In this document: piece after piece, positions 4,781 through 54,904 of the stretch
Layout: the number at the start of each line of letters is the position of its first letter
How positions within the stretch are numbered: position 1 is the first letter of the stretch
Assembly: GCF_023238205.1 (NCBI RefSeq)
Contig: NZ_CP096659.1
Coordinates: 3,489,626-3,553,625 of the forward strand
Direction: 5' to 3'
Length of the DNA: 64,000 nt
From: Halorussus limi
GTDB lineage: Archaea; Halobacteriota; Halobacteria; Halobacteriales; Haladaptataceae
Notes under the pieces: model-generated
Told to the model about the DNA's origin: nothing
Database searches by the model: none
The model's input: only the letters and a program-made list of their open reading frames with translations
Position numbers and translations under genes: made by a program

Positions 4781-4882
4781 AAGCGGAAGGGGCGGGAGTC
4801 GAACTCGGTGACACGGTCCGGGATGCTCGCTTCGCTGCGCTTCCGGGCCTGCGACTCACCTGCTCGACACCCTTTCTGGGCT
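4781..4882 (-). repeat. tRNA-derived palindromic element A
   Basis: Bases 4781-4804 exactly repeat 24 bases (4938-4961) that form the 3' end of the adjacent tRNA-like gene. The element then reads through a core (4811-4860) with two TCCGGG copies around a GCTTCGC-type hairpin. It closes with an imperfect inverted copy of the tRNA end (about 4855-4885). The core is clearly related to one beside tRNA-Ser at 54659-54711. Confidence 0.7.
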
Positions 4883-4942
4883 CGCTTTCTGTTGCTGAAG
4901 ACACTCGGCGCTACGCGCCTCGCAGTGTAGCAACAGAAAGCG
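4883..4942 (-). repeat. Long nested hairpin directly after the tRNA-like gene
   Basis: Perfect 14-bp arms (4883-4896 and 4929-4942) enclose inner inverted repeats ACACT/AGTGT and GGCGC/GCGCC. The outer right arm overlaps the last bases of the tRNA-like gene. It may act in transcription termination or 3' processing, or be a module of the repeat element beside it. Confidence 0.75.
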
Positions 4943-5026
4943 GAAGGGGCGGGAGTCGAACCACGCGAAGCCTGTAAGGCTGCCACCGGGGAGTCCGGTG
5001 GCACTCTACCACTGAGCTACCCTTCC
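4941..5026 (-). tRNA. tRNA-like gene, isotype undetermined (possibly degenerate)
   Basis: On the minus strand a perfect 7-bp acceptor stem (GGAAGGG with CCCTTCC), a standard D-arm (GCTC-AGTGGTA-GAGT), a 5-bp extra arm (AGCCT/AGGCT) and a TTCGACT T-loop are visible over 86 bases, like a class II tRNA. Two things are abnormal. The anticodon region forms a 9-bp stem with a 5-base loop (ACTCC) instead of 5 bp and 7 bases. The 5' half of the T-stem (GCGTGG) carries an extra base against CCCGC. I cannot assign an anticodon. It could be a functional tRNA with a processing oddity or a pseudogene. Confidence 0.55.
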
Positions 5027-33535: not shown

Positions 33536-33609
33536 AGCCAGGGGTGGGATTTGAACCCACGAACTCCCGATTACAAGTCGGGTGCTTGAACCGCCCAAGC
33601 TCCCCTGGC
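33536..33609 (-). tRNA. tRNA-Thr (anticodon TGT)
   Basis: Minus-strand cloverleaf: acceptor GCCAGGG/CCCTGGC with discriminator T, D-arm, anticodon stem CCCGA/TCGGG around loop CTTGTAA (anticodon TGT), and T-arm GTGGG-TTCAAAT-CCCAC. All stems pair. No intron and no encoded CCA. Confidence 0.95.
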
Positions 33610-54587: not shown

Positions 54588-54651
54588 GCGAGCAGATGCA
54601 CTGCTCGCGGTATCGCTCCCGTCAGAAGGACGGTGGGATTGGGATTTGAAC
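54588..54651. repeat. 64-bp direct repeat, copy 1 (with 8-bp hairpin)
   Basis: This exactly matches 54751-54814. The first 21 bases form a perfect hairpin (GCGAGCAG-atgca-CTGCTCGC). The last 22 are the 3' end of the nearby tRNA-Ser read on the minus strand. The copy sits 12 bases after the mcl stop codon and may serve as its terminator. Confidence 0.9.
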
Positions 54652-54727
54652 TACGCCGAGACGGTCCGGGCGTGCGGCGCTTCGCGCCGTTCCGGGCGTG
54701 CGACTCGTCTACTTCAAATCCCACCGT
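54630..54727 (-). repeat. tRNA-derived palindromic element B
   Basis: The left arm (54630-54651) copies the tRNA-Ser 3' end; the right arm (54711-54727) is an inverted shorter copy. The core repeats TCCGGGCGTGCG (54665-54676, 54691-54702) around a hairpin CGGCGC-TTC-GCGCCG. The core matches element A beside the tRNA-like gene at 4811-4860. Confidence 0.75.
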
Positions 54728-54750
54728 ACGCCGAAAGCGCTCGCGGACTG

Positions 54751-54814
54751 GCGAGCAGATGCACTGCTCGCGGTATCGCTCCCGTCAGAAGGACGGTGGG
54801 ATTGGGATTTGAAC
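54751..54814. repeat. 64-bp direct repeat, copy 2 (overlapping tRNA-Ser 3' end)
   Basis: Identical to 54588-54651 at 163 bp distance. It includes the last 21 bases of tRNA-Ser and the sequence right behind it, so this is probably the parent copy. Confidence 0.9.
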
Positions 54815-54876
54815 CCAAGAGGCATGACGCCACCTGCTTTCAAGGCAGGCGCAATAGGCCGCTCTGCCATCCCACC
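54794..54876 (-). tRNA. tRNA-Ser (anticodon TGA)
   Basis: Minus-strand class II tRNA: acceptor GGTGGGA/TCCCACC, discriminator G, anticodon stem CCTGC/GCAGG with loop CTTGAAA (TGA), a long variable arm (TGGCGTCATGCC region) and T-arm TTGGG-TTCAAAT-CCCAA. All stems pair. No intron, no encoded CCA. Its 3' end is repeated downstream. Confidence 0.95.
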
Positions 54877-54904
54877 GCGCGGTCCAAGCTACCGACTCGT
54901 CCGT

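Follow-up and report, generated by a model that had tools for sequence, protein, structure and literature searches.

Hairpin repeats bounded by tRNA 3´-end copies at two tRNA genes of Halorussus limi belong to a family found throughout Halobacteria

Background

In Escherichia coli, processing of the tyrT tRNA sets free a small RNA, rtT, and to our knowledge the repeats at this locus have so far looked like a one-off. Integron attC sites are imperfect hairpins with a paired foot (GTTRRRY / RYYYAAC), above which lie an internal loop without pairing, another stem that contains a mismatch, and a tip that varies; their cassettes stand in tandem. In haloarchaea, the PATEs of Haloquadratum are relatives of IS605 that carry palindromes near their termini and cause no target duplication (PMC3119063). 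Archaeal integrases often use tRNA genes (PMC8371274). Here we compare with these systems two palindromic elements that lie behind tRNA genes of Halorussus limi.

Results

Two elements in the window

The window is the whole analysed stretch of 64,000 nucleotides from H. limi contig NZ_CP096659.1, numbered from its first letter. It holds three tRNA genes, two of which are followed by an element:

4941-5026, minus strand: odd tRNA-like gene, host of the first element (ARAGORN; Rfam tRNA model; conserved in Halorussus)
4938-4961, minus strand: tRNA-side copy of a 24-base repeat, from the T-loop to the tRNA 3´ end plus 2-3 bases
4883-4942, minus strand: trailer hairpin immediately behind the odd tRNA, with perfect arms of 14 bp
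4795-4872, minus strand: hairpin unit at the odd tRNA (covariance-model match 4795-4861, 67.2 bits)
4781-4804, minus strand: distal copy of the odd tRNA 3´ end, exact, 0 mismatches
33536-33609, minus strand: tRNA-Thr(UGU) without an element (ARAGORN and copy search)
54791-54877, minus strand: tRNA-Ser(UGA), host of the second element (ARAGORN)
54751-54814, minus strand: tRNA-side copy of the 64-base X (tRNA 3´ end and trailer) at tRNA-Ser
54630-54727, minus strand: hairpin unit at tRNA-Ser (covariance-model match 54642-54710, 91.2 bits)
54588-54651, minus strand: distal copy of the 64-base X, 64/64 identical

The initial annotation had described a nested hairpin, a second palindrome and an exact 24-base repeat at the odd tRNA. 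All three are present where it placed them, and the 3´ end of the tRNA-like gene (4938-4961) recurs without change in the distal copy (4781-4804). In a whole-genome search with the Rfam tRNA model, the gene itself reaches 40.7 bits. The arms of its trailer hairpin occupy 4883-4896 and 4929-4942, the right one entering the tRNA's own 3´ end. Behind it, the hairpin unit runs from an inverted T-loop arm (4861-4872) through the core to a direct T-loop copy (4795-4804), with the nested hairpin at about 4805-4860; the minus strand of 4781-5026 folds with a z of -5.1 against shuffles. At tRNA-Ser, the hairpin arms (54630-54649 and 54708-54727) are direct and inverted copies of the T-loop and acceptor 3´ strand, and the fold of the element (54627-54728, minus strand) reaches a z of -3.7 against shuffles. 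The initial annotation had described the core as shared by the two elements, and both match one covariance model. No 3´ copy follows the remaining tRNA, tRNA-Thr (33536-33609), so that one of the three tRNA sites in the window is empty.

The odd tRNA deserves a separate remark. Its acceptor, D and T arms are kept in 14 genomes and its anticodon loop differs between species; therefore it may not be an ordinary tRNA. In its variable arm, a stretch of 21-25 nt (GCCTTACAGGCTTCGCGTGG) is found again, unchanged, at a single further site in several Halorussus genomes:

G000:C1:1052352-1052372, minus strand: recurrence of the variable-arm stretch GCCTTACAGGCTTCGCGTGG (also at loci L247, L249 and L251)

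This recurrence sits between two ORFs read from the opposite strand, and their transcript would thus be complementary to the tRNA-like RNA. The same genome, G000, holds about 15 divergent tRNA genes within 3 kb of a 169-kb contig (G000:C4:132597-135401). This cluster resembles a viral or plasmid tRNA array and carries no hairpin units.

Anatomy of the unit

On the tRNA strand the unit has the form X-hairpin-X, where X comprises the tRNA from the T-loop (G53) to the 3´ end together with the hairpin trailer. The reading order is the tRNA, a trailer of approximately 40-75 nt that is often a hairpin, an inverted T-loop arm (resembling GGATTTGAAC), the core (for example GAGTCGCACGCCCGGA...CCCGGACCGTCTCGGCG) and, in direct orientation, a second copy of the tRNA segment between G53 and the 3´ end. 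In the hairpin, a conserved stem in two parts and a variable tip follow the inverted T-loop arm, and the foot is the T-loop sequence GTTCAAATC. Hairpins measure 46-128 nt, mostly 76-80 nt, with tips of widely variable length, and there are no genes inside the units, which span about 100-160 bp. Units are single or arranged in tandem; the Arg-GCG locus of genome G006 has five, identical ones among them.

We compared tRNA-end copies with their tRNAs in 136 units at 28 tRNA types, using a search that tolerated up to four mismatches. Over 20 nt, 97 of the copies are exact and 19 have one mismatch, and in 133/136 units the stretch identical to the tRNA begins 0-3 nt ahead of G53. The direct repeats around recent single units are longer, 49-99 nt; they cover the tRNA end and the trailer and end at or short of the inverted arm (repeat length against arm position: His 99 vs 96, Gly 61 vs 63, Ser 64 vs 93). 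It is X-hairpin-X, rather than a simple short duplication of a target, that leaves this footprint.

Range of the family and its location behind tRNAs

When the Ser element was used as a blastn query, matches appeared in 19 of 21 genomes. With few exceptions, the first 33 loci inspected had an ARAGORN tRNA a short way upstream and in the same orientation. A covariance model built from the core and the T-loop copy matches 279/292 Halobacteria genomes from 74 of 77 genera, including Halorussus, Haladaptatus, Natrialba, Natronorubrum, Halovenus and Halorhabdus. In a search across the phylum it matched 38 of 43 Halobacteria and none of 204 genomes from outside this class. We found no description of the hairpin family in the open full-text literature, and the Halobacteria family of tRNA-end hairpins looks undescribed.

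The initial annotation had asked if copies always abut tRNA 3´ ends. Best-hit loci were picked without regard to tRNAs, and ARAGORN reported a tRNA directly upstream on the same strand in 29/30 and 8/8 of them, i.e. in 37 of 38. The remaining locus, L038 of genome G005, proved to be the odd tRNA, mis-read by ARAGORN, and all 38 examined loci consequently lie just behind a tRNA gene. Units occur at about 28 tRNA types.

Four loci had been considered as orphan copies without a tRNA, and all were rejected: L209 has an intron-bearing tRNA-Arg(UCU), L220 is the odd tRNA, L218 has a tRNA-Gly fragment, and at L221 the unit follows a degenerate tRNA-Val. The last case (genome G004) consists of a tRNA-Val-like gene with an insert at about the T-loop junction and an intact X-hairpin-X behind it (unit 1433-1645); it is possibly an insertion that did not regenerate the tRNA. 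In genome G237, a tRNA-Gly fragment is fused to a hairpin.

Arms, stems and folding

The arms follow the tRNA of their own locus. In its T-loop part, the inverted arm agrees with its own tRNA at 8.66 of 10 positions, whereas other tRNAs reach 7.76 (at most 7.90 in any of 200 draws). Past position 62, the agreement is 2.59 of 6 with the own tRNA and 1.78 with others (control maximum 2.01). This property, the class-wide scale and the fixed X-hairpin-X anatomy go beyond what the initial annotation had seen.

Stems were analysed in 118 distinct aligned hits, in an alignment fitted to the same structure. Stem cells are paired in 99.3% and both-sided changes occur in 9 of 10 pairs; the fitting inflates the paired percentage, but not the variety of pair types to such an extent. 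Covariation scores 0.344 in this alignment; shuffles give 0.091, and slid controls no more than 0.059. The stems thus contain compensatory base changes, as structured RNA elements do. GU makes up 8 of 1140 stem pairs (0.7%), while the tRNA stems at these loci have about 3%, and there are 8 GU against 3 AC; because the stems are GC-rich and the alignment is structure-fitted, low GU is a weak argument. An excess of GU in the outer arm is confined to positions 53-54, in the T-loop.

Both DNA strands of the units fold equally well, as would be expected if complementarity is maintained in DNA. In the trailer of the odd tRNA, the outer stem is almost wholly different between congeners and still forms a perfect palindrome around the same inner hairpin. 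The mean fold z behind tRNAs is -1.99 at filled sites, -0.90 at empty sites and -0.04 in controls. In three Halorussus genomes, trailer hairpins are enriched even behind tRNAs that have no unit: 20% of these show z below -2 in the first 62 nt, vs 4% of controls.

Gain, loss and spread

In three complete Halorussus genomes, a 3´ copy follows 10/46, 12/45 and 14/46 tRNAs, and the sets of carriers differ; a control with swapped tRNAs gave 3/127. Empty sites, a further point that the initial annotation had wanted checked, do exist. Units occupy the His-GUG and Gly-UCC loci of G004, whereas the same loci of G000, in surroundings that match, have none. Most Halorussus have the odd-tRNA unit. G009 does not, and there a convergent gene that served as a marker lies 108 bp behind the tRNA (empty), compared to 284 bp in G000 (filled).

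Cores have their nearest neighbour mostly in a different genome, behind the same tRNA (40.5/135; shuffles 6.8), and most copies have therefore been inherited and are not newly moved. Neighbours at another tRNA of the same genome number 8.5/135, vs 2.6 +/- 1.8 in shuffles (maximum 8.0 in 200), which suggests some spread between tRNA loci within one genome. In G006, for example, Leu-UAG and Arg-CCU have a rare long tip in common and arms that each fit their own tRNA. Our data support the idea of a small family of elements, not necessarily mobile ones, that target tRNA 3´ ends or copy them; most copies were inherited in place.

Mobile elements and viruses

In genome G047, an integrated 3-kb element (L200, 904-4110) occupies tRNA-Gly(UCC) and encodes a DUF7342 protein along with an integrase (PF00589). 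The tRNA 3´ half, the trailer and the hairpin are present in each of the two att copies, and the crossover lies in the anticodon loop. An element of this type offers a route of transfer between cells. Homologues of its integrase occur near a few tRNAs both with and without units, so there is no specific link between integrase and unit. We detected no true hairpin copy in viral contigs (four scans), none in plasmids and none in phages; a single phage match, at 34%, is spurious. Two viral matches, L253 and L254, fall into coding sequence away from any tRNA and are due to chance.

Discussion

Both palindromes of the window belong to one Halobacteria-wide family of short non-coding repeats found only behind tRNA genes, and we suggest that these repeats act at the DNA level and insert or duplicate at the T-loop point. 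We regard this proposal as evenly balanced between right and wrong. From the sequence comparisons we infer DNA, and not RNA, to be the acting molecule, and likewise the duplication step: a hairpin would be gained at the T-loop/3´-end point together with duplication of X, so that the tRNA would always be regenerated. Arrays might then expand and contract through recombination between copies of X. The arms would be held complementary via pairing of single-stranded DNA, either by a recombinase that recognizes the folded hairpin or by template switching in replication. We found no enzyme for the unit, which is itself gene-less.

The main rival of this proposal is that the unit acts as RNA. It would be transcribed by read-through from the tRNA, and the trailer with its mimic of the tRNA end would aid 3´ processing or termination, or a small RNA would be released. 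Such a role agrees with the fixed orientation behind tRNAs, with compensatory changes in stems and with stable hairpins that begin right at the tRNA 3´ end, and the E. coli rtT RNA derives from a repeat with the same architecture. Constant orientation and conserved structure also fit an RNA role, and this counts against the DNA-level proposal, as does the inheritance of most copies. Most tRNAs of each genome, however, lack the unit and its carriers differ between congeners, so the unit is dispensable. Further, GU wobble is rarer than in tRNA stems, folding is without strand bias, and tips are highly variable in length within hairpins of 46 to 128 nt. Strict Watson-Crick pairing, an apparent lack of strand preference, rapid replacement of whole stems and dispensability all favour DNA over RNA, although none of them is decisive, and we consider an RNA role somewhat unlikely.

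Alternatively, the units could be leftovers of integrative elements, since tyrosine recombinases integrate at tRNAs and leave behind copies of tRNA 3´ sequence, and the hairpin might be a piece of their attachment region. The 3-kb element of G047, with its PF00589 integrase at tRNA-Gly(UCC) and a hairpin at both ends, and the tRNA-Gly fragment fused to a hairpin in G237 would suit this explanation. It appears quite improbable in view of the uniform unit size and the approximately 28 tRNA types, a larger number than a single integrase family should be expected to serve. Viral contigs, plasmids and phages contain no hairpin copy, and the crossover of the G047 element lies in the anticodon loop, not in the T-loop. 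Scarcely credible is ordinary tandem duplication, in which slippage copied tRNA ends and neighbouring palindromes without any element family. It would account for direct repeats and for tandem arrays of identical units such as that at Arg-GCG in G006, but the conserved core at dozens of different tRNA loci in 74 genera and the compensatory stem changes cannot be explained by local slippage alone.

On a further reading, the units would form a cassette system without genes that resembles integrons and is built on tRNA genes. The hairpin, folded as a single strand, would rebuild a double-stranded T-loop site at its foot, a recombinase would join this site to the T-loop of a tRNA, and every insertion would restore the tRNA. 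The repeats at tyrT of E. coli would then have arisen from the same principle a second time, independently and in another domain. We deem this reading improbable.

Because the same anatomy recurs at approximately 28 tRNA types across an archaeal class, with variable copy number and empty sites, a comparative study becomes possible, also in genetically tractable haloarchaea. For annotation, tRNA 3´ fragments beside tRNA genes of Halobacteria need not be scars of prophages.

Comparison with known systems

Like the tRNA-targeting integrative elements of archaea with their tyrosine recombinase att sites, the units have a 3´ part of the tRNA duplicated on either side of the insert and leave a regenerated tRNA. 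Unlike them, the units have no integrase gene, their insert measures about 50-130 bp, and inside it the tRNA end is repeated in inverted form. The PATEs and MITEs of Haloquadratum (PMC3119063) are similarly short, non-coding, palindromic and haloarchaeal. By their description in that paper they differ from our hairpin units, which lie behind tRNA genes and duplicate the tRNA end; scatter over many genomic sites, as in MITEs or PATEs, was not encountered, all 38 best-hit loci being behind tRNAs. The layout of the hairpin from foot to variable tip and the tandem arrangement recall integron attC, from which the units differ in their T-loop foot (in place of GTTRRRY / RYYYAAC) and in having no cassette genes.

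The tyrT/tyrV repeats of E. coli (rtT/RttR RNA, Rfam RF00391) likewise stand in tandem behind a tRNA, and every unit terminates with an exact copy of the tRNA 3´ end, which in their case is 19 nt long and starts in the T-loop. Behind tyrV of strain MG1655 the units are 178 bp long and end in AATCCTTCCCCCACCACCA, the 3´ end of tRNA-Tyr, and an inverted tRNA-end arm closes each unit around an inner hairpin (GGGGAAGGAT...ATCCTTCCCC). In the E. coli genome they are restricted to one locus and one tRNA type and overlap the small ORF tpr, in contrast to about 28 tRNA types and a whole class in archaea. The RF00391 model has no match in the genome of the window at E <= 1, and it does match the E. coli control; the archaeal family is separate from RF00391 and not a member of it. 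As the tyrV units end in a copy of the tRNA-Tyr 3´ end and fold via the inverted GGGGAAGGAT arm, the archaeal units share with tyrT/rtT the architecture, not the sequence.
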